38,322 bases of DNA, taken from positions 1,484-39,805 of the forward strand of contig JAAMXP010005087.1 in the NCBI GenBank assembly GCA_019693395.1, written 5' to 3'. Under the pieces are notes generated by a model. That model was not told the origin of the DNA, searched no databases, and saw only the letters and a list, made by a program, of their open reading frames with translations. Shown in pieces: positions 2,271-31,203 of this stretch; positions within the stretch are counted from its first letter, which is position 1, and each line of letters begins with the position of its first letter. The position numbers and the translations under genes were made by a program. Source of the DNA: Ettlia oleoabundans (taxonomy: Eukaryota; Chlorophyta; Chlorophyceae; Chlamydomonadales).

Positions 2271-4553
2271 ATGGGTTGTGCCACCTCTAAAGCTCAAAGT
2301 GTCGCTGACGACTCTTTGGCCATGAGGAAGCGTGGCCCGAGAGCCAGTATGGTTGCGGCGACCTTCAAGCGGGAGGAGGTCTTCAGGGACTCAGCGGCCA
2401 AGGAGGCACAGCGGGTGGTTGCTAGCAACGGCAGCGTTGCCCTGCTGCAGCCCAGCGCCGGCTACACCCTGCGTTATGCTTATATCAGCCAACGGGGCTA
2501 CTACCCTGACACACCCGACAAGACTAACCAGGATGCAGCTTGCACAGCGGAGAACTTGGGCGGCAGCGCGGGTGAGCTGTTTGCGGGCAGTAGATGGCCA
2601 GCCAGTGGGCTGGCTGGCTGCCAGTAAAGCAGTCTACCATGCACCGTGAGGCTGCACAAAGCGATGTGGTTGCACTTCTCGCCTATCCTGCTCTTCCACA
2701 TCATTTCTGCTGCAACTGCTGCCCCTCTACACTCAGAGATGCACCTGTTTGGCGTGTTTGATGGCCATGGCGAGCTGGGCACCGAGTGCGCCCAGTTTGT
2801 GCAGGACAAGGTGATGCAGAGCTGCCGCTGCTCGCCTGTATACCTGTCTTCTACATAATGTTGCCCCGTGTGACTTTGTCCCTTCTCCGATCCCCACTCC
2901 CGCCTGCCCCTGCTGTCCTTTCCCCGGTCTTGCCTTCTCTTGCCAATGCAGCTGCCAGCCAACCTGCGCAGCGACCCTGGGGCTCTGGCTTCCAGCCCGG
3001 CCCAGGCCTTGGCAACTGCGCTGGTCACCACAAACACGCAGTTGCATGACGATCCTACTGACGACACGCTCAGCGGTACCACTGCCTGCTGCGTGCTGGT
3101 GGTAGGGCGCACGCTGTATGTGGCAAATGTGGGTGATTCGCGAGCTGTGCTGGCAGAGCGCGCCTCTGCTGATGGGGGTGGGGCTGAAGCCAGCGGCAGC
3201 GGCACTGGCCTGACTGCCCACGACCTCAGCCATGACCAGACCCCCTTTAGGTGCGCTCGGCTGGGCAACGTGCAGGGTGAGCTTCACTGGGCTGAGCCGC
3301 TGGCCTGTCCAGAGGGCATGGTCACAGCATTCAGGCTGGCATCCTTCTTGCTCTTCAGCTCTCTTCCCTTTCCCGTTTTTTGGCTATAATATTGAACAAT
3401 CACGCCACTGCGTTGTGCAACACCTCGTGCCCGCTTTGGCAAGCCATGCCCTGTCAATCTCTGCATTGGCCGCAGGCCCGATGAATGCTTGCGTGTGCTC
3501 AAGGCTGGGGCGCGTGTGCTGACTCTTGATCAGCTGGAGGGGCTGAAGGACCCCACACTGCCCTGCTGGACAAATGAAGCCGACTGTGATGGCGACCCTC
3601 CTCGCCTCTGGTCACCTGCCGGCATGTTCCCGGGCACTGCATTCACACGCAGCATCGGGGACTCAGGTGGGTGTGGCAGCCTAGAACAGGGTATGGATTG
3701 GGTTTGGGCCTGAGGCTGTACGTATGTGCGTGCGCGCATATGCGGTCGGAAGTCGTTGACAGCTGTTCAAGCATTGTATGTTGCCACGGGGTGTTGTCGG
3801 ACTGTGCAAGCCAGTTGCACAGCGCTCCTGCCTCACATCCTGACCTTGATGTATGATGACAAACACCTGCTCCCTACTCCTCCCCTTGGCTCCCTCCCGT
3901 TATGTGCCGGTGCAGCCGCCGAGAGCATAGGCGTGATTGCCGACCCAGAGCTCACCACCACGGAGCTGGGGCCGCAGGATGCGTTTGTGGTGGTGGCCTC
4001 TGATGGAGTGTGGGAGTTCATCACCTCGCAGCAGGCGGTGGACTTGGTGCGTTGTCGCAGTGCCAGGCTGCACTGGCCGCTCTTGCCGCAGCGCTGGAAC
4101 TCCCGCATGCATAGAAGCTGTGTTTCTGTGGTTGGCAACCACCTCCAGGGGGCTGACGTTTGTTAGTTCTGTCAATGGGGCATAGGCGCTTCAGCCGGCT
4201 GTGTTCACTTGGGGGGCAAATCCGCGTCTGCGCCCTTCCTCTTGCAGGTCGGGCGGTATGACAACCCCTACGATGCGGCCAAGGCGCTTGTGGCTCAGGC
4301 CTACAAGCTCTGGCTGCAGAAGGAGACCCGCACTGACGACATTACAGCGGTGGTGCTCTTTTTTGACTGGGCGCAACAGGAGCAGCAGCAGAAGGCAGGC
4401 CAAAAATGTCAGTCCCATCCGCAGTTGCAGGAGCAGACCCAGGCGCAGCAGCAGCAAGGCACTGGGCAGCGGCAATCGGAGGCAGTGATGCCGCCATCGC
4501 AGCAGGAGCAGCAGCAACAGCAGCTGCTGGAGCGTACACCCAGCCAAAAGTGA
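2271..4553 (+). CDS. PP2C-type Ser/Thr phosphatase, acylated N terminus, Gln-rich tail
   Basis: Metal-dependent protein phosphatase of the PPM/PP2C family. Six exons (2271-2571, 2737-2810, 2952-3250, 3476-3666, 3916-4046, 4248-4553) give 433 residues. The N terminus MGCATSKAQ fits N-myristoylation at Gly2 and palmitoylation at Cys3, which predicts membrane attachment. Catalytic motifs in order are YYPDTPDKTNQDA, FGVFDGHGELG (metal-binding DGHG), YVANVGDSRAV, DQTPFRPDE, FTRSIGDS, VVASDGVWEFI and RTDDITAVV; all metal-ligand aspartates appear present. The wording ISQRGYYPD, DNPYDAAKALVAQAY and LWLQKETRTDDIT resembles, from memory, the phosphatase half of the plant PP2C-kinase fusion (Arabidopsis At2g20050 type). 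Here it is followed by about 60 Gln-rich residues and a stop, with no kinase domain. Upstream exon 1 has no alternative ATG in a better context. Confidence 0.92.
4380..4530 (+). repeat. CAG-rich (polyglutamine-coding) low-complexity segment
   Basis: Imperfect CAG/CAA runs within the last exon of the PP2C gene encode a Gln-rich C-terminal tail with several stretches of three to five glutamines. It is a likely site of length polymorphism. Confidence 0.75.
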
Positions 4554-11142: not shown

Positions 11143-12803
11143 TTACGTGAGCAGATTGTACCCAAAAGGATCGGCTACGTGCTTTGACCAGTTGGCGTAT
11201 GGGCCTGCAAATGCATGGCCAGCAAGACAGTCAGTAGCTGTTGCCCCTGCCTCTGCTGCCAAGCACAACGATGCGCCAGTTAAGGCATCCTAAACCCAGC
11301 AGTCCCAAGACTTAGGTATGTAGCAGCGAAAGAGAGTGCAGCCCCCTGACACCACGATATTTGAACCCGTAACCATGCACTTACCCTCGCCGGTGACAGC
11401 TGCCTGCACAGCAAAGCCCAGGAAAGAGACCATGGCGAGGCGGCCGTTCTTGATCTCCTTGACCTTCAGCTCAGCCAGCACCTCGGGGTCGTCGGCCAGA
11501 CCCAGGGGGTCGAAGGGGCCGCCGGGGTACAGAGAGTCCATGGAGTCGTAGGCAGACTCGTCAAACTTGCCCACACCAGGGCTGTAGCCGGCGGGGCCCT
11601 CGCCTGCAGATGCGGAGGCCACAAGGGAATGCAGGTTGGGTGGGGCCAGAGCTTCAAGCTGTGCTAGCAATGTTGAAGTTTAAGCTGCAGCGCACCCAAT
11701 GCTGTAGCTCCTATAAAGTACCATGACCTGCTCTTTGCCAACCATCCTTCCACTCTCAGCTCACCCACGCGACGGTAGTTCTCCACAGCCGCCATCAGCG
11801 CGGTGTTCACGGCCACCACAGCAAACAGGGGCAGGGGGTTGGAGATGTTGGCGATGGGCACCGCGAACCAGTTGAGCGTGCCGCCGTTGAGCATTGCAGC
11901 GCCGGTCTCGAACCAGGTGGCACCCTTGACATCAGCGCCATTGGCGGCCAGGCCCTCAGGGATGATGGCACCGGCGGCGGCAAGCATGGCCCAACGGGCG
12001 TGCAGCAGCTCGTTGGCGCGGTACTTGGCCAGGGTCTCAGAGTCCTTGGCCAGGCCCAGAGGGTCGTAGCCGTAGTCGCCGGGCAGGGTGCCGTTGAGCA
12101 CGGGGTTGATCTCATCACGAGCCATCAGGCCGCCTGTTGATGGGAGAAAAGTGGGTGAGATGATAAGCGTGAGAGAAGTGCATGTTGATGGACCTGTAAC
12201 GTCACAAGATCAAGAAGGGTGTGTGCTAGGAGGGCAGTGTTCCACAGTGTGCGCTGCACGCAGAGCAGGTCGGCGGCGGAGGCAGCAGCTGCCCTCGGCA
12301 TCTCGCAGCTCACAGCAGCTGCCAGTCCACTTCTCAGACTTTATTGTGCTATTAAGGCGTTTATGAGGAAAAGGATGACGGAATACTCACCGGGCAGGAA
12401 CAGCAAACGGTCAGGGCCGTACCTGCAAAGGCACAAGGACAACAGCAGAAAGGGGCAGGTCAGCTGAGCTGATATGGCGGCGATATCGCGGGGCTCAGGC
12501 AGGCTGGCACCAAAGGCCCTTGTCCCGTTTGATCCGTTACTAAAGGGTCGCGTCGGAATAACACATGGGGCAGCATGACTGCAAGCGTGCCGCTGGGCGG
12601 CCCCAGCCGGCCCAGTTGAGGAGCCCCTCATGATGCGGCCTCCCTGCGCACCACTTGTCCAGGTTGATGTTCTGGGAGTTGCTGCCCAGCCATCCGCCCT
12701 TGGTGCTGCTGGTGCCGGCCTTCTTGGCGGGGGAGGACGCCTTCTTGGCGGGGGCCTTAGTGCCCTTGCCGAAGAGGGCGGTCACCTTCAGAGCGGACGC
12801 CAT
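11143..12803 (-). CDS. LHCB5: Chlorophyll a/b-binding protein, minor PSII antenna CP26-like (Lhcb5)
   Basis: Thylakoid light-harvesting protein that binds chlorophylls and xanthophylls and connects LHCII trimers to the photosystem II core. Five exons (12803-12652, 12422-12391, 12133-11765, 11603-11385, 11204-11143) give 277 residues. Residues 1 to about 45 are Ala/Lys/Ser-rich and look like a chloroplast transit peptide. Then come [27 protein letters not shown] and the first Lhc helix [21 protein letters not shown] and a second helix lead to the third, [12 protein letters not shown], with its Glu/Arg chlorophyll ligands. The end is [22 protein letters not shown] followed directly by stop. LLFLPGG, TLNWF and DPFGYNLL favour CP26 over LHCII or LHCI, but paralogue assignment from memory is less certain than family. 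A light-responsive promoter is expected upstream of 12803 but no element is defined. Confidence 0.9.
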
Positions 12804-13901: not shown

Positions 13902-16900
13902 TTAGTGCGAAAAGAACATGTTTTGAGGGCGGACCTGGATGTCGCCGTACGGCTCCTCCTGCCCCAGCTCCACAAATCCGGTGTTGCGCAGCACCAGGCA
14001 TTCGTAAAACCAGCGCGCAGCATCCAGGCGGCCGCGTGCGGCGCCGCCAGCGCCCCTCGCTTGCAGCAGCCCATCCAAGCTGAGCGTCGACATATCAGCT
14101 GCCAGGTTGCCGTGGGAGGGGTGACGCCGTTTGGAGCCTGCGGAGGGCGCAAACTCGTGGCGCAGGTGCTCCAGCACCAGAGCAGTGTTTTTGGTGAATG
14201 AAGTCTGCTGTGCAGCGCCGCTAGAGCCGCCGCTGCGCACTGCGCTGCTATCCTCAGGGCCTGCAGCAGTTAAGGAAGGAGGGTGTGGGCAGCATGTGCA
14301 ATGCGACGAGGGTCCATGGCCTCACAGAGGGCAGGCAGCTTGCACAACACCTGCGCAAGCTCTCTGAACTAACCCTGCACCAGCAGGAGCAGCAGCACAC
14401 CTATGGACCCAAGTTCCACTAGCGACTCGCCACTGCCTGACAGCGGCGCCAGTGGCAGCCTGCCGCGGCGCTCGGCTGCCGGCCCCTCCTCCTCCTCCGG
14501 CCTGCCTGGCCCCGCAGGGAAGGGTGCTGCCACCAGATCATGCTCCTGCTGCTGCGTGTCTGCCGTCTCGATGAACTCCTCATCCAATCCGCCCACAGAC
14601 AGCGGAGCAAAGTCACTGGTGCCGCCCGAGAACATAGAGGCAGCTCCATCGCCAGCGGTGTAGCCAGCAGACAGCCCCAGCGACCCTGGTGGCTGCAAGT
14701 CCACCCCCTCCTGCCCGAGCTGCTCCACCGCAACGTCAGCGGTCGCCGCCGCCGCTGCAGCCTCCTCCGCCGCTGCCGCCGCGCCCCTGCTGCTGCGTCT
14801 GCGGCGATGCGGGCTGGCGTCGGCTGCTGCCTGTCCTGGCAGTGTGTGGTTGCGGCTGAAGAGCTGCATCAGCTCTGACGACAGGTAGGTGAAGGCTGAG
14901 GGACGGTACATCTCACTCTCACGTGCAGCCTCACTCTGTGCAACCTGCGGCACCCAGGCAGGCAGCGCAGCATGGGCAAAAAAGCTTGTAAAACGCCCGG
15001 GAGGAGGGAGAATGCTAAAGGTGGAAGCACACCGTCAGGCCAGGCAGGAGTGGGCTGCCCTGCAAGTCAGGAATCAGCCCCTGCATGGTGACTACACAGG
15101 AGCAGGCAGCCTTTGGAAAGGCAAGCTTTCAAACAGCATCATAATTCCTGGGCGCAGAGTCATCAGGCAGGGAGGACAGCTGTCTCACCACATCAAAGGG
15201 AGCGGGCGGCAGCGCAGGCCGCTGCTTGCGCGCACGCAATCCCCGCCGTGTCATCAGTGGCTTGCGGTCAGCCAGCAGCTTGCGGATCTCATCGGAGGGC
15301 TGCGTGGTGGCAGGCCGCCCATCGGAATGCGCATCCACCTGCGGCCGTCGACGATGTGCGGGCCGCTGGCGGCGGCGCCCAGCCTGCTGCCGCCCAGGGG
15401 TGGCCCCGGCAGCGGCTGCTGCCACTGCTGCCTCTTCCGGCTCCTCTGCTTCCATGGGCAGCGGGGGCGGCAGCTCCCCATAATCAGTCATTGAAAAGCC
15501 GCCCCCACCAAACGTTCCCGCAGAGGTGGTGGTAGTGGCACCGGCCCCGCCGCCGCGAATGTCAGGCAGCAGGTCATCGGGGCCGCCAGCGGCAGGCAGG
15601 CTGGGTGGAGTGATGCGCATGTCGCTCAAGCCTGGCAGCGGCGCGCGGCCGCTTTCTGAAACAGGCGTTTTGCCAGGAGTGGGGGCTGGCCCAGCAAACA
15701 GGTCCTCGGGGGGCACCGCCATCACCTCGTCGTCCATCAACACTGCAAGACGGTGAACACAGCAGCAATGCTATGCCCAGTGGGTTGACTCAGCAGGTGG
15801 TATCCTTGCAACCTGCCAGCAGCAGTGTGTCGGCTGCTGCGCTTAAGAATGACCTGACTCTCCGTAGTGTACAAAGCAGTCCCTTCTCCCACCAAGTGGC
15901 CTTTGGCTCGCTTCGCACCTGGCGAGAAGGCGTCTGCCTGGCCTCCAAAGAACATGTCGGTGCGGTCATGGGGCGCCTCCACGCCCTGGGAGCGCAGCCG
16001 TTCCAGCTCCGTGCTGCAGGCATGGGCAGCGAGGGTGGCAGCAGCCGGGGATTGGGTTTGGGAGTCCTAAGTTTAAGGTTTGCTACCAGGGGCGCAAGGA
16101 AGCAGTGAGCCAAACAAGGCCGTCACCATTCACGACTGCCCAATAAATGTCAAAATGGCAGCCAGCTGACCTGTAGCTATGTTGCTGGCCAAACCAGCCA
16201 AACCTATCCCCCCCATGCTTATACCNNCCCCCCCCCAAAACAAAAAATGCCTGAAGCCTATCCCGGCTTATGCCCACCAAGCGCCACCTTGCACCTGAAG
16301 CGTCGTTCCGTGTCGGCTCCATCCACGTCGTACCGCTCCTCTTCACCCATAGGCGTCCAGTGGCTGCCAAACAGCTCCGAAATGTCCTGGGCCACCGTCA
16401 CAGAGGCACCAGGCGCGCCGTACCTGCCTCCTCCCTGCAGCCCAATGTCTCCCTCCCCAAACAGGCTGCTCTCAAAGCTGGGGAACAGCTCGGCACCCAC
16501 AAACTGAGCCATGGGGTCGTAACCGCCATCTTGCAAGGTAATGGCAACCTCAGGAGCCACGCCACCATCAGGCAAGTCCAACTGCATGCCTGTGCCGCCG
16601 CCTGCCGCCGCATTCTGCGGGATATCCAGCAGTGGAAAACTGGGGTGCAGGTGAGATGCATGGATGGCGCTGCCGAGTGCAGAGGGAAGCGGGTGTGCTG
16701 GTTTCAGCAGACTGGTGTTAAGCTTGGGGTGGTGGCAGCAAGGAAGGTGGGTGTAGTGGGGGCTGGAAGGCAAGCGCACCCTAGCCAGGCCGCGAAGCGC
16801 CAGCCCCGCATCCTCCTCCAGGAACTGCAGTTTGCGCAAATACAACCGCACCAGCCCCAGGAGCAGCTGGCCAGACAAGCGCAGTGCTAGCGGAGCCTCC

Positions 16901-17203
16901 GGGTTGATGATGGAGTCTGCAGCGAGGGCAGAACACAGCGAAACAGAGCACTGGCAGGTGTCACGGTAGGCGGAGAGGCACGGCGGCTGCGCCTGGTGGC
17001 AACCCGCTGCTGCCTCGGCCGCCATACCGCCACGTTTTAAACCCCTGCTGTTACCCTATCCGTGCCCTGGCGCACTCACCAACAGCGGCAGGCAGGCTGC
17101 AGCTAAAAACTTCTTGCCGCTTGAGGCTCCGCTGGCTCCATGACGCTATCCAGACGCTGCCCAGTGGCCCCTTCTTACTGAGTATCTGTGCACTGTAAAA
17201 CAT
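13902..17203 (-). CDS. RAD21: Cohesin alpha-kleisin RAD21/SCC1/REC8
   Basis: Kleisin subunit that closes the SMC1-SMC3 cohesin ring and is cut by separase at anaphase; nuclear. Seven exons (17203-17080, 16916-16780, 16614-16295, 16013-15919, 15742-15135, 14944-14401, 14260-13902) give 728 residues. The N-terminal kleisin domain spans exons 1-2: MFYSAQILSKKGPLGSVWIA, then DSIINPEAPLALRLSGQLLL and LVRLYLRKLQFLEEDAG. It is followed by the conserved LDLPDGG. The middle is long, acidic and Ala/Gly/Pro-rich, as usual for kleisins. The C-terminal winged helix has DAARWFYECLVLRNTGFVEL and EEPYGDIQV. The exon 5 donor (GTTTGA) and exon 3 acceptor are the least certain junctions, though both keep frame. 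I cannot tell mitotic RAD21 from meiotic REC8 by eye. The gene is tandem to POLD2. Confidence 0.9.
16226..16227. other. Ambiguous bases (NN) next to a C run
   Basis: Two undetermined bases sit before a run of nine C, within the intron between RAD21 exons 3 and 4. This is a sequencing or assembly artefact point, without effect on the coding model. Confidence 0.95.
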
Positions 17204-20500: not shown

Positions 20501-20575
20501 CAGACCTATAGACCTACTTGCACACAACCTCACGCGCACGCCGACTGCCTCCCCATCTTGCTTTGACTGAGCCAT
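17554..20575 (-). CDS. POLD2: DNA polymerase delta small subunit (subunit B)
   Basis: Accessory B-subunit of replicative DNA polymerase delta; nuclear, lagging-strand synthesis and repair. Seven exons (20575-20526, 20068-19845, 19613-19454, 19204-19016, 18841-18602, 18439-18209, 17875-17554) give 471 residues; human POLD2 has 469. The first exon ([17 protein letters not shown]) joins to ATYDELLG, matching the VATYTN region of animal proteins. An OB-fold region follows: [37 protein letters not shown] and [13 protein letters not shown]. The inactive calcineurin-like domain contains [49 protein letters not shown] and [15 protein letters not shown]; it ends with [21 protein letters not shown]. 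All junctions are GT-AG. The start codon is only 118 bases from that of the divergent TPR gene. Confidence 0.96.
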
Positions 20576-20693
20576 CACAGCTTGGCTCTACCGGGGCCTG
20601 CTCGTGAACAAAACTCGCTCCTTGCTGCATCCTCAAACGCGCAAGGCCAGGGTGCACATCACCGACAGCGCAGGGGCCAGCAGCAGCACTGCC

Positions 20694-21523
20694 ATGGAGT
20701 CGGCCGCGGCGACTGCTCCACGAGCAGAGGATTCAGCAGCATCACCAACAGTGGCATCGACAGCAGCAAACCGAGAAGCAGTGGCAGTAGCAGAAAAATT
20801 CAAGGAGCTAGGCAATGCGGAGCATCGCAGCGGCAACTACTTAAAGGCTGCAGCATTGTACACGCAGGGCCTTCAAGCCGATCCTAGCAACGCTATCCTG
20901 TACAGGTATATAAGCAGTCCTCACCCTGTACTGGCTGGTAGGCTGCTTGAGGCAAGATGCCGCATCTGGAACTGGTGGCTTAACACCATAGGGTATTGGG
21001 TTGGATGCCTACCAAGCCTTTCTTAAACCAAACGATATGCCTGCCCCGCTGTGCCCCCGCTATACATTGTGCAGCAATAGAAGCGCAGCGCTGATGCAGC
21101 TGAGCAAGACAACAAAGGCACTGTCAGATGCGGAGGAGTGCATCCGCCTGCGACCTGATTGGGACAAGGGGTATTACCGCAAAGCAGCGGTGCTGGAGGC
21201 TTTAGAAAGGATGGAGGAGGTGCGTGGTTTAAGGCGCTCAATTAATATGTATGCTGTTCAAAATCAAGTGAGTGTTACTGCTCTGATAGGGACTGGCATG
21301 GCCACTGCTTCATATATATTTGGGAATCACATGTCACTTACAGACAAAAGCGGTTTGGGCTTGGGTTCCGCCTGCTGGCGCCCCCACTGCTGCTGGTTGC
21401 TGCCTGCAGGCATTGCAGAGCTACCAGGAGGCATTGCAGAGGAATAAGGAGAGCAAGCAGCTTGCGGAGAAGGTGCGGGTGCTGCACAAGGTCGTGAGGA
21501 GCAAGGCGGCGGCACAGAGATAG
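20694..21523 (+). CDS. Small TPR protein (Hsp70/Hsp90-type co-chaperone candidate)
   Basis: Three exons (20694-20905, 21075-21219, 21410-21523) give 156 residues. After a Ser/Ala/Thr-rich leader of about 30 residues come three tetratricopeptide repeats: AEKFKELGNAEHRSGNYLKA, then LYSNRSAALMQLSKTTKALS, then GYYRKAAVLEALERMEEALQ. The Lys/Asn/Asn/Lys/Arg spacing resembles the dicarboxylate clamp of STI1- or TTC-type TPR domains that hold EEVD tails of Hsp70/Hsp90. A basic, coiled-coil-like tail (QLAEKVRVLHKVVRSK) ends the protein. No other domain is present, so the specific orthologue is not clear. The start at 20694 is the first ATG; the upstream frame is open only from a GTG. It is divergent from POLD2 with a very short spacer, suggesting a shared promoter. 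Confidence 0.85.
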
Positions 21524-21705
21524 CCGGGAGCAGAGCACGTTGAATGGTTAATTCATTCTTTTTCGTATCAATGCCCTGGTCTTGCATCCGCTACCCTCAT
21601 CTGTCTTCTCCTATCTCTGTGACACTTCATGTTTAAAGGAACCGTGCAGAGGTGCACCAGGTGGCGCTGAGGGTTGCCAGGTGGGCAAGTTCCCAGCGCT
21701 GATTT

Positions 21706-23181
21706 ATGCTGTGCGACTGGATGACGGAAATTGACGGCATGGCCAATCTTCAAGAGCGCCTCGACGCTGCTTTTGGGAGACTGTTGCCAGGTGACGGGCA
21801 GCAGCCTGCTTGGAAGCCCGCGGCCCAGCGAGTGTTTCGCGCGGGAGCGCCCTTGGTAGACGATGTAGACAGCAGTGATGAGGAGGAGGTTAAAGAAAGG
21901 AAGCGCAGAGAAATTTTGCCCGGCCTGGCACAAACCTTGGCTGAAGAGGATGAGCCCGATGATGAAGGTTTCAGGTGTGTGGTTTGCATCCGGGCAAATC
22001 AAGGAACGTGAGTAGAGGTTTTGAAACGGCGGAAGGTAGAGGTGCGGCACTGGCGGGCACTGGCAGGCACTGACGGGCGGCGCTGCTACTGTTGAATGGC
22101 ACCCGTAGACTACACCTGCCGTTCTTGGTGTGCTTGTGCTTGCAGGCCCTCAGCTGCCTTCTGTCGCCAGTTAGATGCTGAGGAGGAGTACAATGAGGTA
22201 GACGAGGTGGCAATGGGCAACATCTCCCGCCATGCGGGCGAGGCACTGCCGCCACGTCACGCACATGTGAGCTATGCCAACCCGTTGCTTGTGCTGCCAC
22301 TTCGACAGGTTCTGTCGCTTTGATCTTTGCTGTAGCCTTTGTTGTTGGGTGTTACATCTATTCGCGCCTTGCATGGTTCCCATTGCTAACCGTGATGCTT
22401 GCAGGTTGTGGAGGATGCGGATTTTGACCTGGAGGTGGCATCGGCAGCCGCTGCTGTAAGGGAGGCCAGTGGCATGGAGGTTGAGGAGGCTGGAGAGCAG
22501 CCAGCAGTGGGTGGTGCTGCCGTGTCACCCACCCCTCCTGCTGCCCAGCTAGCGGGGCTGGCAAGTGGCGATGCAGGTGCGTCCGGCAGCAGCGGCGGCG
22601 ATACCAGGGTGGAGAAGCGCAGGGTGCGGTTTGAGGGCGTTCCTCCCGAGGCAGCCATGGTCTCAAGAGCTGGTATGCCTCGCCAACCCAAGAGACAAAG
22701 CGGTGGCCGCGGCAGCTTTGTACCGGACCACGTGAGACACCCTGAGCGGTACACCTGCTATACACTGGATGAACCGCTCATTGTGGGCGGCGGTGTTGGA
22801 CAGCTGGCCAGTGGCCAGCACAACCAGCGGGAGCAGCTGTCAATAGAAGCCGCAGGCGAGGTGCCAGAGCAGGAACATGAGCCAGAGCGCTGGCAGGGCC
22901 CGCCAGGCTCCATCCAGTTTGTGTCACGGCAGCAGCGTGGCGCAGACAGTGCAGGGACGGAGCCTGGCAGCAGGACTGGCACTGCTGTCGCGCCACCATC
23001 AGCAGGAAAAAGGCTGGCCCCGCAGGTGCATGCAGCGATATGTGCGGAGCAAGAGGATGCAGATGACTTGGCAGAGCTGGAATCCGATGCAGCTATGCAG
23101 GAGGCTGCCACAAAACCGACCCCGGCAGCAGCCAGGCCCAAGCGGCAGTATCGCCGAGGCGCAGCAGTAGATGCTGACTAG
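21706..23181 (+). CDS. TSSC4-like protein (U5 snRNP assembly factor family)
   Basis: Three exons (21706-21974, 22146-22266, 22405-23181) give 388 residues. The N terminus (LQERLDAAFGRLL) and the acidic segments VDDVDSSDEEEVKERKRRE and LDAEEEYNEVDEVA follow the pattern of plant TSSC4-like proteins. Exon 3 has KRRVRFEGVPPEA and then FVPDHVRHPERYTCYTLDEP, the family's signature VPD-V-P-Y-YTLD block. In humans TSSC4 binds PRPF8 and promotes U5 and tri-snRNP assembly, so a nuclear pre-mRNA splicing role is inferred. The C terminus is low-complexity with acidic and Arg-rich parts. ATG at 21706 or 21721 could start translation; the latter gives MTEIDGMANLQERL. TGTAA follows the stop by 40 bases. Recognition rests on short motifs. 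Confidence 0.75.
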
Positions 23182-23578: not shown

Positions 23579-26500
23579 CTACTGCGCGGGTGGTGGGCGG
23601 TCTGGCGAGGGCGTGAGTGAGCGCAGGGCTGTGAGGTCGGGGGGTCGGTCAAATTCGGAGAACTCCTGCTCGTATTGATCCCTGTGGGAAGAAAGGACAA
23701 GGGGCCCAGCCAGGGGCAGGGGGCCATGCATGGCGTTACTGTGGGAGTGTTAAGGTGGAGAACAGACTTGGCCACAGTAAACTTGAATGCCAACGCTGAC
23801 ATTTATCAAGAGGGGTGCCAAGCGCGCTTGGTCGTGGTGTGCGGCTGGATAAAGGCACAACAGCTGGCACCAAGCACACCAACTGTCCCTCTGCAAAAGC
23901 CAGCAATCCCTGGGCCCCTTCCCACCTGAGCGCCTTGATGTTCTGCTCCGCCAGCATGTCGAGGTTCTTGTAAGAGAAGTTGCGAAAGTGTGGGTGACTG
24001 CCGTCGCTGCCCTCACTGCTAGCTTCGCTGCCGCTGCTGTAGTCACCGCCATCGCTGCCCATGGGGCTGCTGCAGCTGCTGCCCGACACAGAGGCGGCAT
24101 CACCGCAGCGCCCACACAACGAGCAGGAAGCCACATCGCCGCTACCCTCACCAGCGCTACGCAAAGCAGCTGCTGCGGTTGTTGTGACGGTGTCAGGGCC
24201 CGCTACCTCATCATCACCTCCAACATAAGGTTCCCGGACATATGCGGCAGGCGGTTCGCCGCCGCAAAGCTCCGGCAGTCCCTGCCAAGGCTGCTGGGCG
24301 GTCTGCTGCCGCTGCTGCTCCGGCTGCTGCTCCTCAAGCTGCTGGTGTGCCTGCACGCTGATGGTGGACTGCTGGAGCTGTAGCAGGTCTGCTGCAGCGT
24401 GCACCACGCTACCACCTGAACCATCCACCGCCATTGCCGCGTCAGCACCTGCCAGCGAGGCTCGGCTTGTGTTGGAGCCGCCGCTGCTAAGGCTCATTGT
24501 TGCCCCACGCAGGCCCCTCAACTCACTAAGCGACGGCCCAGAGGGCTCTGCCAGCGCCTGTCGTAGTGAGCGCCGCCGTCCACTGGGCCGCCGGCTGCCG
24601 CCCCGGCTCTGGCTGCGGCTGGAGGCTCGCGAGCCAGCAGGGCTCAGCGGCATGGCGGCCACGCCGCCGGCACCAACCGCAGCAGTCACCGACGCCAGGT
24701 CCAGCTCGCCCCTGCTGCTGTCCAGGTCAAGGGCCAGGGAGCGCTGCGACACTGGCTTGGATGAGAAGTAGGAGGTGTCTGTGTCGCAGTCAGGTGCAGG
24801 CACAAAGGCCACCTTTTGGCGCGCCAGGCTGGCCCAGTCAACACCAGCAAACCAGGGGTGCAATTTCACCTCGCCCGCACCCCTGCAGCAGCAGCCATTT
24901 GCAGGGCAAGGGGCATATCTGGCTGTAACGAGCTTGTGAGGGTAGCAATTGCCAATTGCCGCATTTGAAACCAGTGCAGCACCACCAGGCTAGGCTTGCT
25001 GCACTCACAGCCAGCTGTTTCAGGCCCCCGCTTGCCTGTGCCCCAGCCGGTCCTTAGGCTCAAGCTGCAGCAGACGCTCTATCAAGTCCCGGCACTCGGG
25101 TGACATCTCCTTCTCCGGGGGCCACACAATGTTCCTGCGCCAGCAGCAGCACATGGACAAGTAGCTTAGCAACAACACCCCAAGAATGGCAAGGAAGGTG
25201 GGCAGGCACCAACGATCCCATTCGGCAGGCTTCCCGGCAGGCTTCCCTGTCTCTGGGAAAGCAGCCACTGCAAAGTCAGGGACCTCCAGCACAGCCTGTC
25301 CAGCTCAACCGCGCCCCGCTTCTGGCCCATACTAACTGCGCACCTGTCCAGGATATTTTGAAATATTTCCTGGGGTGAGTCAGCGGCAAAGGGCGGAGCC
25401 CCTGTCACAAACTCGTACAAGATCACACCCAGGCTCCACCAGTCCACCTCCAGCCCATGCCCAGTGCCCAGCAGCAGCTCAGGAGCCAGGTAATCGGGTG
25501 TGCCCACGGCACGCCTAGGCTCCTCCAACCCTGCTGCAGGCCCCGCAGGCCCCAGCCCCTGCGGTAGGCGAGGGCTGGCCAGCAGCGACGCCTCCCGCAG
25601 CATGTCTGCCTTGCTGGCAGGGCTGGCTGTGGCTGAGGGGGGGTCGGGCCCCAGGTTGCTGGAGGTGCGGCGCTGGGCCTTGGGGGAGGAAGGCAGGCTG
25701 GCACCATCCAAGTCCATAACCACGGGAGGAGAGGGGTCAGTGCTGTCTATCAAGCCAAAGCATGATAACCCTGCAGCAAGAAACTGGGGAGGCTGAGACA
25801 TGATGGCAGCAGCAAGGAAGCCATTTTGGGTTGGTGAGCTCAGCAGCCTTGCTGACAGACATTCCTGGAACCAGTCGGGCACGTGAACGCCAGTTGCAAA
25901 TGTTAGATGGTGGGTGTACCGGGGTGTCACGCACTGCCATGTTGTCACACATAACTGGGTTGACGCAGGCCTTCCTGTCGGCATATGCCATGCACCACCC
26001 ATAACGCCACGCACCAAAGTCTGTGAGCTTGATGTGACCATTAGATGAGATGAGGAGGTTGTCCGGCTTGAGATCTCGGTGGATGATGCCCTGGGTGTGG
26101 CAGTACTCCAGCGCCAGCACCGCCTCTGCAACGTACTGCCGAGCCACCTCCTCCTCCAGCGCCCCCATGTTGCGCAGCAGGGAGAAGCAGTCGCCGCCAT
26201 TCAGGTACTCCATCACGATGTACAGGTTGTCTCGGGAGGTGAAGGAGTAGTAGAAGCGAACCTGGGGGTGATGAAGGTGGTGGGAAGGGTGGGGTGAGGA
26301 GTGTAGGGGATGGCCACAGCAAAGGCACAGCGAAGATGCTGTAAAGGGATACGATAAGGGTGTGTGGGTGGATGGGGCACAAGCAAAGAGTAGCAGTTGT
26401 ACGGTCGCGATAAGCCTCCTGGGGATGGTGTGACTGCAAGGAAAAAGGCAGGCAGGCAGGAAGGCAGGCAGACAGGCAGGAACGGGTACTGCCTGACGCT

Positions 26501-29500
26501 GGGCAGATACTTGGGGCTGGCGATTGGTGCTGCATGCCTGCCTGCTCATCTGCCTCGCTTAGCCATGCCCCCCTCCTTGCCCCATCTCAGCCCTCACCAC
26601 GAATGGGTTGTTGGCCATGGCCAGTATGTTGCGCTCGTTCTTCACCGACTGCACCATGTTCTTGCGGATGAGGTCCACCTTGCGCATGACCTTAATGGCA
26701 TACAGGTCACCCGTGGCACGCTTGCGGGCCAGGTACACACGGCCAAAGGCGCCGCGGCTGATCGGCTTCAGGATCTCAAAGTCATCAATGCTCATGCTAC
26801 TGGAGGTGCGGGGTGTAGAGGCGCCTGCATGAAGAGCATAGGGCAGGGGCACAATAACTTGGGACCGATACGGTTCAGTGTAGGCCAGTTGGGCTGAAGA
26901 AGCGGCGGCAAGCGGCCAAAACACAAGTGTCAGGCTGGTGCAGAGGTGTCCGTCACAACCTAGCCCTGGGGCTCGGCTGGCACAGGCACAGCCGCACCTG
27001 AATGCTCGCAGCTCTTCAAACCTTTTCACCCACCTGAACCCGCATCCGACATGCGACCAGGCACCGCCGTACGCAGCTCCCCCAGCTTGCACCGCACCAA
27101 GCGCAACACTCGCTGCGCATATGCCTCGGCCTCGGGAGACAGCCCACCGCTGCCACTGCTTGCACTGGATCCGCCGGCTGGCGCCAGCTGTGATAGGCTG
27201 TGCTGCTGGTGCCGCTCCCCCTGGTCCAGCATGGCCTGCAGCACCGCCGCAATCCCCTCACAGCGTAGCATGGGCTGCCGCGTGCCGTCGGGCTGTAAGG
27301 ATGCCACTTGTCTGCATGCGGCCACCAAATCCTCCATGCTATCAAAGTCAGCGCCACTTAGGGTGGGGCTTGCTAGCTGCTCCTCAATCACATTGCCCAG
27401 GCGAGTCAGCAGCGCATCCACGTCACCCCCCTGCAAACAGTTGCATCAATCGGCGAGTAGGATTAGGCAGGTCTTGTAGTGACAGATCATGTACTGGGCC
27501 AGTTCCAGGTTAGAGCATGCAACGGTCAGATGTAAACAGTCAAATGAGAAGGCGACAGATCGGCAAGGAGTTGCGACCGGCTGGCTTTTCTGGTAGCCAC
27601 CGCAAATGCAGAAAAGCCATTCTGCCCATAAAATCTGCCTGCTTGCCTTCTTGCTTCAGCAAGATTTACTAGCTGCCACCAGAGCATGCTCAGCAACCTA
27701 CCCACCTGCTTGCAGATGGCCTCCAGCATGGCACACACTCGGCTGTGACGCTGCAGCCCATCTCGTCCCACCGGGTCCTCACAGATGCGGCACACCACGC
27801 GGCAGGGCGACACACTTAGAGGGCTGCCCTCAGAAGACTCCAACTCTAATGTCAACGCCTTTTGCAGCCCCGGGTGCAGCCGTGGCTGCTGTGGCACGCT
27901 CAAGCTCTCCACATCAGCGGACATAGCCCGCCGTGCGCCCCGTGCGGTGAGCAGCATGTGCGGTGCCAGAGACTGCTTTGGAAAACCATCCACATGTTGC
28001 TGCTGCAAGGGCTTTGCCTGCAGGGCAGTCAGATGGCACTAGGGCTGTGTTCGCTGCATGCATGAATGCAACTGTGCATGGCGCATGTGGCAGGTGGGCA
28101 GGTAAGCAAGCGGTTTGAGAGGAACTACCTGGGACGCGCTTAGTGGTCGCATACCATCCACCACTGCTCCTGCATGTATGATAGACAAGTGGCCGTTGCT
28201 GTCTGCTCCCTCCTCCGCCACGGCAGGTGTGCTTGCAGCTGCAGCTGCTGGTGCGGCTGCTTCAGCAGAATTATGAGCCCGCTCCTTGCTGGCCCCTCGC
28301 ATGTTCTTGAAGCGCAGCTTGAGCAGCTTTAAGATGCCATACCGCTTGGTGGGCGAGTCTGTGCCCAATGGGCTGGCAGCGCTGCTATCGCTGCCACCAG
28401 GAGAGTGGCTGTGCAGCTCCTGCTGCACCTCCTGATGCTGCTGAGGTGCCTTGGCTGCTGCGGCAGCAGGCCTGCCCTGCCAGCCGTCCTGCCTTGTTGC
28501 CGCCTGCTCAAGCTCCGCTTCCAGTGCTGTCACCACGGAGCGGCCCAGCGGGGACAGGCCCACCTGGCGGGCTGAGTGCCCAGGGGTGGACACATCTGAG
28601 GCAGCGCCTGTCGTTGCTGGTGAGCGCACAGGGCCGGGCGACTCTGGCATGGGACTTAGGGCCGGTGGCTGTCTGGCCCCAATGCCGCCGGCTTCTTGGA
28701 TGCGCAGGTGGTGCATGCTAGCCAGGAGGTCCTTGAGGCTGCGTGAGGGCGCCGTGGCGGAGCGCAACAGCGGTGAGGCACCCGCACGTGGCGACGCTGA
28801 TAGAGCGGGCAGGTGGTGCACCTGGCCACTATGGTCCATAGATAGCTGGTTGCGCAGCATGGGGAATCCCGAGAAGCGGCGCAGCCGGCCAGGGCCCTTG
28901 CTGCGTGGCTGAACTGTCAGGTACGCGTTCCCGCTGTCTTGGTGGCGGACCGGGTGCCCACCGCTGCCAAAGGGGCTGCTCTCCTCGGTGGCCACCAGCC
29001 GACTGCATCGTGTGAGGATGAACAGCAGGCGTGTGGCCCAGCCACGCACCTCCCGCAGCTTACATGACCGCCGCAGATCCTGCAGCAGGCATGACGGGCA
29101 GCATGTGGATAGCAAGTCCCAGGCAGGGGGGCTGTACTGCTGCTGACATCTCGTCCTCACTGTCTCTGCGGTGAACGCTGGTCAGGGATGACAAACTGGA
29201 ACATATGATCACACAAATTTGCTACTTTCCCCCTCCTGCGTCTGTAGCATGCCTGCAACCCACCCAAGGGCCCCAGTGCTATGCCCCCTTGGGCATCTGC
29301 CGCCGCATTTATACACGAGTCCCTATTTTCTCCTTTCCCTCACCTCCACTTGGTCCACAACTGTTTGAATGGAGTCCCGGAAGGTCCTTTCATCCTCCGT
29401 CAAACACCTCTCCGCAATCATGATGATTCGCTCCAAGCTGCTAACATCACTGCTGTCCATCACAGCAGCTGCAACGGCGGAAGCAGGCGCCGCGGCTGCC

Positions 29501-30386
29501 TTCCTTGCATCCTCAATGAAAGCTTCAAGGTCTCGGTTGACCTGGTTGATAACAAGGGGGTGGGAAGAGCTTGAGCAAGGTGAGGGCACATACGACGAGC
29601 ACCAATACTAGTGGCGGGATGCAAGCCGTTCCACTGGCCACACACCTGCAGCTTGGCCAGCTGGAAGCTCTTGTGTAGCTTGTCCTTGCAAGCCGTGGTG
29701 GGGGAAGGACAGGCATCTGGGCTGCCATCCTGCAGTAACGGATACGGAGCAATATGGTGCTCCCCAAATGGGAGGAGTGGACAGCGAGGAGGAATGAACA
29801 GCCAGCTGACCCCAGCTGTTGTGCCTGGGGTGACGCAAACACCTGATAGCTAGTCAAAACTGCACGATGCGACAGCAGGTTTGCTCGCAGAATTGTTGAG
29901 ACTAGCATCCAACACTCACCGCCAGCTGGGTCCCGCTTGACACCGGCTTGCTACGCTCGCCCTCAAGGCGGACAAACAGGGAGGGCATGCGTGAAAAAGG
30001 GCCGCCAGCCTGGACATCAGTGAAATACCCCCTCCGGCGCACTGGCGAGGGTTGCGGCAGCGCAAAACCTGCCAGGGGTGTCAGTGGCGTGTTCGCTGCA
30101 GCCTGTAGCCCAGCAGGAAGAAAAAGCAGCAGCAGCTATCAAGTTGAGCGGGCGGTGGGGCATGGGAAAGGAAGCAAGTCCTTTGCTGCCAGCAGTGTTG
30201 GCAGAAGCCCCGGGCAAGCATGCTACACCACTTTTGGTTATAACAAACAACGCCAATCCCCTCGAAGACGGCCATTACACGCACTTGCTGCTCTTCATGG
30301 ACCGTCGCAAGGAACGGGCTGGCCTGCGGTGGCCCTGCAGCCTCAGCTGCAGCTGGCGGCGAGGGCGTGGCTGCGGTCGGCTCCAT
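23579..30386 (-). CDS. IRE/Rim15/Greatwall (MAST)-type AGC protein kinase with C2HC finger
   Basis: Thirteen exons (30386-30285, 30102-29920, 29729-29646, 29541-29344, 29136-28129, 28017-27706, 27430-27034, 26824-26598, 26261-26015, 25770-25344, 25134-25036, 24882-23926, 23681-23579) give 1447 residues. The N-terminal half has the IRE-family region [20 protein letters not shown] and a C2HC finger near residues 601-620 (CRIC...HSRVC). The kinase domain is at about 777-1106: GAFGRVY loop, YAIKVM lysine, [11 protein letters not shown] at about 918, GTPDYLAPE and a [12 protein letters not shown] segment. Between DFG and APE lies a Ser/Pro-rich insert of about 85 residues, a hallmark of this family. 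After HPWF come [16 protein letters not shown] and DTSYFSS, then a Ser-rich tail. Plant IRE kinases act in growth; yeast Rim15 and animal Greatwall phosphorylate endosulfine. Intron 11 uses a GC donor (CACAG before GCAAGC). The start is 366 bases from endosulfine's. Confidence 0.93.
26447..26480. repeat. GGCA-rich imperfect tetranucleotide repeat
   Basis: Imperfect GGCA units (with GGAA and GACA variants) lie within the kinase intron between exons 8 and 9. On the gene strand this reads as a TGCC-rich tract. Confidence 0.8.
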
Positions 30387-30752
30387 CTCGCAGCAGCCTT
30401 AATGTCGGCGTCAGTGTATAAACATTATAAGGCGCGCTCGTACAAAGACGGGGCAGAGCGCGTCGGGGGGAGCAAGGCTGTTGGACTGAGAGTCGCCGCG
30501 GTCTTGGAGGGTGGCAGCACCTGCCGCCACTTCACTGCTCCCTCCGTGGTGTGACAGACCGCGCGGAACGGACTGGAGATAATGCCAGAGGAAGCGCAGC
30601 ATGGCGTAGCACCTGACAAGAATGGGTTCCATGGCTCCTGGTTGCTTGTGCTTGCTCCCTTTCACTGAAATCGCACCAAGGTTCCCTCAGGTTCTCCTCC
30701 TGCGCCGGCGACCGCGGCCCTCGACAACGGTGTGTCGAACGGCCTGAAGAAA
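30387..30752. promoter_or_regulatory. Divergent promoter region between kinase and endosulfine
   Basis: 366 bases separate the two start codons and must hold both 5' UTRs and promoter elements. No TATA box is evident, and no other coding sequence is supported. Shared regulation is inferred from geometry only. Confidence 0.6.
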
Positions 30753-31203
30753 ATGTCCGCGCCTGGCGCCCTGGTGAGCACCATGGAAAAGCTGCGATGA
30801 TGCGTCATCCGTTGGGGCGTGCGGCGCGGGCGCCGCTTGAGATCACTTGTCTGGTAGCAGCCTTGGGGATGGGCGGCAGCACCGAGCAGAGGCCGGTGTG
30901 TTGCGCCACCCTGGCCGGTCGCTATCGCCTGCTCACCCGCACAGAAGAGTATGTTCCGTCCTACAGGGGCCCCAGCAGCAAGGCAATATGACCGAGGCAG
31001 AGCAGGAGGCGCTTTTGCGTGCCAAGTATGGCGGCATGCTGAAGAAGAAGCCGTTGCTGCCCAAAGACCGCAAGCATTTTGACTCGGCAGACTGGCAGCT
31101 GTCCAAGCAGGGGGTCCCTACGGCCCAGCCGCAACTGGAACCTAAACTGAACCCTTCGGTGCCGCCAGCACGCCGCTCCTCGCAGCTGGGTGATGGCCAG
31201 TAG
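30753..31203 (+). CDS. ENSA: Endosulfine family protein (ENSA/ARPP19/Igo), PP2A inhibitor
   Basis: Small, mostly unfolded regulator. When phosphorylated on the serine of its FDSxD motif by Greatwall/Rim15 kinases it inhibits PP2A-B55. Exon 1 is 30753-30773 (MSAPGAL, donor GTGAGC) and exon 2 is 30967-31203, for 85 residues. If this short first exon is not used, an in-frame ATG at 30988 (MTEAEQEALL) still gives the whole conserved part. Diagnostic sequence is LLRAKYGGMLKKKPLLPKDR followed by KHFDSADWQLSKQGV at residues 43-57. FDSADW, with the target serine at 47, is the plant form of animal and fungal FDSGDY. The tail ends with ARRSSQ, a possible basophilic (PKA-like) site as in animal ARPP19. 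TGTAA lies 110 bases after the stop. It is divergent from the IRE/Greatwall-type kinase. Confidence 0.92.

Follow-up and report, generated by a model that had tools for sequence, protein, structure and literature searches.

In the green alga Ettlia oleoabundans, a gene predicted to encode a MAST-class AGC kinase of the IRE type lies head to head with a gene encoding endosulfine, and homologs of the two genes are neighbors or linked in other green algae, as judged by gene numbers and contigs. We consider it probable that their products carry out the first two steps of a Greatwall-endosulfine-PP2A-B55 switch and that the divergent pair is old in core chlorophytes. Overall, the arrangement reported in an earlier note on this DNA is confirmed, and the interpretation attached to it, that kinase and substrate are coupled through one promoter and act together, is partly supported and is strengthened by the linkage in other algae.

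Positions 23579-31203 of the window, i.e., the whole stretch of 38,322 nucleotides analyzed here, span both genes exactly (Table 1). Both gene models are based on splice sites, open frames, and homologs. The kinase gene occupies the minus strand from an ATG at 30386 to a TAG ending at 23579, and its 13 exons join into one open frame of 1428 amino acids (aa); its introns have GT...AG junctions, with a GC donor after exon 11 as the one exception. The acceptor of exon 5 (29079) was picked by resemblance to Arabidopsis IREH1 and yields an open frame, and the junction is backed by a Chlorella vulgaris homolog (P0028). The endosulfine gene, on the plus strand, has two exons of 21 and 237 bases, separated by one intron, and encodes 85 aa. 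The earlier note had placed the two genes head to head with 366 bases between their start codons; the 13-exon and two-exon models on opposite strands bear out the layout, and a count gives the same spacing.

Table 1. Features of the kinase gene, the endosulfine gene, and the region between them (positions in the window)
Feature	Positions	Strand	Remark
Kinase exon 1, aa 1-34, ATG at 30386	30285..30386	-	
Kinase exon 2, aa 35-95	29920..30102	-	
Kinase exon 3, aa 96-123, conserved N-terminal region begins	29646..29729	-	Region aligned with homologs
Kinase exon 4, aa 124-189, conserved N-terminal region	29344..29541	-	Alignment
Kinase exon 5, aa 190-506, 11-residue motif from aa 207	28129..29079	-	
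Kinase exon 6, aa 507-610, C2HC finger (aa 582-601) at about 27792-27733	27706..28017	-	
Kinase exon 7, aa 611-742	27034..27430	-	
Kinase exon 8, aa 743-818, AGC kinase domain begins	26598..26824	-	
Kinase exon 9, aa 819-900, HRDLKPDN and start of DFG	26015..26261	-	
Kinase exon 10, aa 901-1042, activation-segment insert and GTPDYLAPE	25344..25770	-	
Kinase exon 11, aa 1043-1075, then GC donor	25036..25134	-	
Kinase exon 12, aa 1076-1394, 14-residue C-tail segment at about 24806-24765	23926..24882	-	
Kinase exon 13, aa 1395-1428, stop codon	23579..23681	-	
Intergenic 366 bases; TATA-like word at 30417; AACGG at 30567, 30726, and 30738	30387..30752	.	Putative promoter
Endosulfine exon 1, MSAPGAL	30753..30773	+	N-termini alike in Chlorella and Micractinium rows
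Endosulfine exon 2, PF04667, stop codon	30967..31203	+	
Ser47 codon in FDSADW, expected phosphorylation site	31084..31086	+	
RRSS, PKA-type site near endosulfine C-terminus	31171..31182	+	

Several other frames were observed in the window. Plus-strand frames at 20571-23181 end about 400 bases from the kinase stop codon, tail to tail with the kinase gene; they match TPR (20571-21026) and TSSC4 (22396-23181), each weakly and below the Pfam cut-off. On the minus strand are a frame with a Rad21/Rec8-type cohesin kleisin N-terminus (16258-17055; PF04825), a frame without a Pfam match that could be part of the kleisin gene (15129-15770), an exon of a chlorophyll a/b-binding protein (11664-12209; PF00504), which fits a green alga, and an FAD-binding domain (44-556; PF00890) that gives the impression of a succinate dehydrogenase flavoprotein. 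A partial PP2C-type protein phosphatase (PF00481) lies on the plus strand at 2874-3389.

The product of the minus-strand gene is, judged by its sequence, a MAST-class AGC kinase of the IRE type. It matched the Pfam protein kinase domain (231.6 bits), and among PDB sequences its kinase domain was closest to human Greatwall (5loh, 325.8 bits; 8v5h, 325.5 bits), followed by CBK1 (257.9 bits), NDR (256.7 bits), and PKA (236 bits). In the reverse direction, a search of the genome with the Greatwall domain returned this locus first, with three exons at 101, 82, and 64 bits, the next kinase scoring 54. A C2HC finger (C-x2-C-x11-H-x3-C; aa 582-601, 20 residues), which we take to be a mark of IRE kinases, precedes the catalytic part; DFG is at aa 899 and APE follows 97 residues on, which implies an insert in the activation segment, and a C-tail segment of 14 residues occupies aa 1102-1115. 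These motifs, together with Greatwall as the top PDB match, agree with the earlier assignment to an IRE/Rim15/MAST class with a C2HC finger and an insert.

Motifs were counted in 121 proteins, comprising the window's kinase and 120 listed of 5985 matches (scored from 7991 candidates). The C-tail pattern F-I/V-P...DT-S/T-Y/F-F was present in 121/121, the finger pattern in 116, and an N-terminal LFILTRC-type motif in 88, with some of the misses being short or partial models. Among the matches listed, the plant rows bear the names IREH1 and IRE3, and the closest organism-named relatives over residues 540-1130 are from C. vulgaris (78% identity) and Micractinium conductrix (77%). The DFG-APE spacing of 97 residues compares with 49 to 59 in the 43 land-plant-named rows among these matches, and it is longer in some of the algae listed.

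In a member-by-member Pfam search, DUF1908 was matched by 2 of 11 segments (best E value, 0.0051), the window's segment not being one of them, and a profile search of PDB found no solved DUF1908. Pfam gave no PDZ match in the kinase, an absence that excludes the animal MAST1-4 type only, since plants are said to lack PDZ too in the available part of PMC12024977. MASTL in the narrow sense was considered and is ruled out by the 97-residue spacing, where the MASTL insert is several hundred residues, and by the about 755 residues that precede the kinase domain, where the N-terminus of MASTL is short; a passage in PMC11961639 likewise describes a MASTL insert far longer than this spacing. As insert and N-terminus differ, we file the protein as one that may work like MASTL and not as MASTL, and, given a DFG-APE spacing far shorter than that in animal Greatwall, activation by CDK cannot be assumed for the algal kinase.

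The plus-strand gene had been read as an 85-residue endosulfine with FDSADW, and its product indeed scored 43.6 bits against PF04667 (cut-off, 29.8). The FDS-x-D core is present in all 121 endosulfines compared (the window's and 120 listed of 302 matches), as FDSADW in 110, FDSADY in 10, and FDSGDY in 1. In an alignment of 21 hand-picked rows, which did not include the sole FDSGDY row (P0025), F, D, S, A, and D are invariant. An RRxS motif, which we take to resemble the PKA site of ARPP-16, follows the core in 88 of the same 121 proteins, and the second site of regulation in ARPP proteins may thus be old in endosulfines too. In ARPP-16, this PKA site (Ser88) opposes the MAST3 site, according to a section of PMC5515580. 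A search of PDB with the single endosulfine sequence gave no match; a profile of ten endosulfines matched ARPP19 in the PP2A-B55 complex 8ttb (E value, 0.0014), with FDSADW aligned on KYFDXGDY, where X is presumably the modified serine. None of 36 pattern matches in viral contigs, and none of 252 in bacterial and archaeal contigs, was confirmed as an endosulfine relative.

The assembly is a 32.9-Mb draft in 1230 contigs, and one endosulfine locus was detected in it. A genome search with the kinase returned its own exons at 310, 176, 125, and 84 bits and all other matches at 69 bits or less. The two best other kinase loci were classified, one as PKA- or PDK1-like and one as RSK/S6K-like (the latter is also matched by Greatwall, at a lower score, 57.2 versus 76.5 bits); no second MAST-class kinase was recognized in the genome, with these two loci classified individually. 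A B55 gene is present as seven pieces on one other contig, with 53 to 67% identity to the human protein. All three players, kinase, endosulfine, and B55, are therefore encoded, and single-celled algae may hold one copy each of the kinase and endosulfine, as the counts in this genome suggest.

Linkage in other species was read from gene names, gene numbers, and contigs among the listed homologs (120 of 5985 kinase matches and 120 of 302 endosulfine matches). The two genes have consecutive numbers in Parachlorella kessleri (kinase, N2152v2_006130; endosulfine, N2152v2_006131; both on a 4,246,843-base contig) and in an alga from EukProt (scaffold20.g7617 and g7618). In Haematococcus lacustris, which belongs to another class, the numbers are two apart (kinase, QJQ45_017100; endosulfine, QJQ45_017098), and both genes are on a 6,605,496-base contig. 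In C. vulgaris and M. conductrix, kinase and endosulfine share one contig (1,096,452 and 1,044,756 bases, respectively), linkage there being read from the contig. Identity to the window's endosulfine is 49% in P. kessleri, 64% in the EukProt alga, and 40% in H. lacustris (49% for another model), which indicates that the linked pairs are not close copies.

The H. lacustris row is the least clean of these, with a second endosulfine copy and damaged-looking models. In its kinase model, the kinase part is preceded by only about 260 residues, and the finger and the N-terminal motif are absent; at a guess, tag 017099 could be the missing half. The second, nearly identical endosulfine (QJQ45_013233) is on a contig of the same size, so the tags there do not simply follow the order along the chromosome. 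The endosulfine models P0203 and P0206 from this species are nearly identical, have different first exons, and reflect recent duplication, allelic variation, or an assembly copy.

The two genes are apart in Apatococcus fuscideae, on different short contigs (kinase, 21,511, marked partial; endosulfine, 84,905), and also in EukProt (kinase, gene30770; endosulfine, gene18589), if both of those come from one species. None of three land plants (Bidens hawaiensis, Senna tora, and Helianthus annuus) has them linked, each pair being on contigs of different length, assuming one assembly per species. Apium graveolens and Mikania micrantha were left out because their tags differ in style, probably reflecting separate annotations, and the Nannochloris rows because their tags come from different strains. 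Absence from the lists weighs little, given the fraction of matches that they hold. On synteny across chlorophytes, to which the earlier note had looked as a check, the outcome is thus mixed: the genes are neighbors or linked in five algae by gene numbers or contig and apart in A. fuscideae. The pair is not a one-off of one genome, a conclusion drawn from gene numbers and contigs, with orientation read in E. oleoabundans only.

Retention of the pair may still have arisen without any benefit. Both genes could act together while their neighborhood was inherited by chance, without shared regulation, and we regard this as quite possible, though somewhat short of an even chance. In compact genomes, divergent gene neighbors are common. 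Gene order has been extensively rearranged between Coccomyxa and Chlorella variabilis, with 252 adjacent ortholog pairs conserved among 5,232 orthologs (PMC3446292), so some pairs persist anyway; the baseline is expected to be higher within Chlorellales, and survival there alone would be less remarkable. Against chance, the members are an enzyme and an established substrate of its class rather than random genes, and the near-adjacency in Haematococcus, which would raise the surprise, crosses the class boundary between trebouxiophyceans and chlorophyceans, where weak synteny alone is reported to persist (PMC3446292). As adjacency loss is strong between green-algal genera, the retention of the pair is notable, but it is no proof of selection.

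Coupled expression of kinase and endosulfine, as the reading of an old functional pair would have it, directs attention to the 366 bases between them. Three AACGG words occur there, all on the plus strand, where 0.46 would be expected from the density in the window; as five words were tried, the excess is a hint only. In plants, AACGG forms the core of the mitotic MSA element. Two of the words lie immediately ahead of the endosulfine ATG, with a spacing of 12 bases, and the TATA-like word sits near the kinase start. E2F-type and CCAAT words are absent from the 366 bases, and GATA is seen once, with one expected. The short common 5' region, a putative shared promoter, probably helps to keep kinase and endosulfine levels in step.

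In the proposed switch, the MAST/IRE-class kinase, driven by a presumed upstream signal, would phosphorylate Ser47 of endosulfine in FDSADW, and phospho-endosulfine would then occupy and inhibit PP2A-B55. With the phosphatase inhibited, CDK sites, or nutrient-controlled sites in starvation, would stay phosphorylated. By analogy with other eukaryotes, this mechanism appears likely, and, as the searches detected a single endosulfine and recognized a single MAST-class kinase, the reaction on Ser47 is its simplest reading. The earlier claim that this kinase class phosphorylates this serine elsewhere holds by precedent for MAST2, MAST3, KIN-4, Rim15, and Greatwall in the available portions of four papers (PMC12732324, PMC5515580, PMC11961639, and PMC4072559). 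As described there, Rim15 phosphorylates Igo1 Ser64 and MAST3 the core serine of ARPP-16, each yielding a PP2A-B55 inhibitor (PMC4072559 and PMC5515580, respectively); MAST2 phosphorylates ENSA Ser67 (PMC12732324); and the worm MAST kinase KIN-4, which does the job of Greatwall, phosphorylates ENSA-1 at its DSG motif with a kinase domain made in Escherichia coli (PMC11961639).

These same precedents, together with the lack of a second recognized MAST-class kinase in the genome (weaker matches aside), argue against a reading in which the substrates of the IRE kinase belong to the cytoskeleton or to growth, something else phosphorylates endosulfine, and the neighborhood is coincidental. We regard that reading as unlikely, even though parts of PMC12024977 and PMC12732324 connect IREH1 with animal-cell centrosomes and IRE kinases with the growth of root hairs, and a 2025 review, in the part available, denies plants Greatwall homologs (PMC11829769). 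That the layout is an assembly artefact is highly improbable, even in a draft of this many contigs, given the neighboring gene numbers in the assemblies of other species.

The same review leaves the functional homology of plant MAST kinases undetermined, and likewise the control of PP2A-B55 by a Greatwall-like kinase in plants and algae, and the accessible text of a 2025 paper places IREH1 nearer the MASTL lineage, as an early outgroup, with plants predating the MAST/MASTL split (PMC12024977). A linked kinase-endosulfine pair in algae was not found in the literature searched, which comprised titles and opening lines and had most subscription papers and bioRxiv outside it. Endosulfine has no occurrences in the main text of a Chlamydomonas nitrogen-starvation phosphoproteome paper; in the available portions of PMC5414177 and PMC8159995, plant endosulfine appears only in a reference title, and those portions hold no statement on plants and Greatwall. 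With the kinase gene and that of its presumed substrate close together in several algae, the IRE-type kinase and endosulfine are a pair to test, and the question of Greatwall function in plant MAST kinases becomes testable with them.

The old functional pair that we favor raises the possibility that this switch of yeast and animals operates in the green lineage as well, and, if true, it would connect algal nutrient and cell-cycle control with the pathways of Rim15 in yeast and Greatwall in animals. Only tentatively, and with more doubt than belief, do we extend this to a stronger statement, namely, that the role of Greatwall is filled in the green lineage by IRE/MAST kinases and that core chlorophytes have kept a divergent, co-transcribed pair since before the Trebouxiophyceae-Chlorophyceae split (700 to 1,000 million years ago in a passage of PMC8226300, citing others) because the kinase:endosulfine ratio sets the switch.

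Among known systems, the animal Greatwall (MASTL)-ENSA/ARPP19-PP2A-B55 module provides the closest solved kinase, with 59% and 52% identity over two kinase parts, and shares the FDS-x-D core of the substrate, the C-tail F-I/V-P...DTSYF, and the presence of B55. It differs in the DFG-APE spacing, which is several hundred residues in animals and 97 here, in the long N-terminal region with a C2HC finger that the algal kinase has, in the adjacency of the algal genes, and in the substrate motif, which is FDSGDY in animals (as in 8ttb) and FDSADW here. Rim15 of budding yeast has other N-terminal domains. The Rim15-Igo1/2-PP2A-Cdc55 pathway has the same kind of substrate site (Igo1 Ser64) and the same pathway logic, as a section of PMC4072559 presents them. 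KIN-4, MAST2, and MAST3 are, like the algal enzyme, of the MAST class and act on endosulfine or ARPP-16 in vitro, in the portions available of PMC11961639, PMC12732324, and PMC5515580; they carry DUF1908 and a PDZ domain (a passage of PMC12024977), neither of which was recognized in the algal sequence. Plant IRE/IREH1 kinases share the C2HC finger, the LFILTRC-x-RL motif, the insert, and the DTSYF tail, and the three land-plant rows compared are 71 to 74% identical to the algal protein over the first kinase part; they differ from the kinase described here in their shorter DFG-APE spacing, and it is the gene of the alga that adjoins endosulfine.
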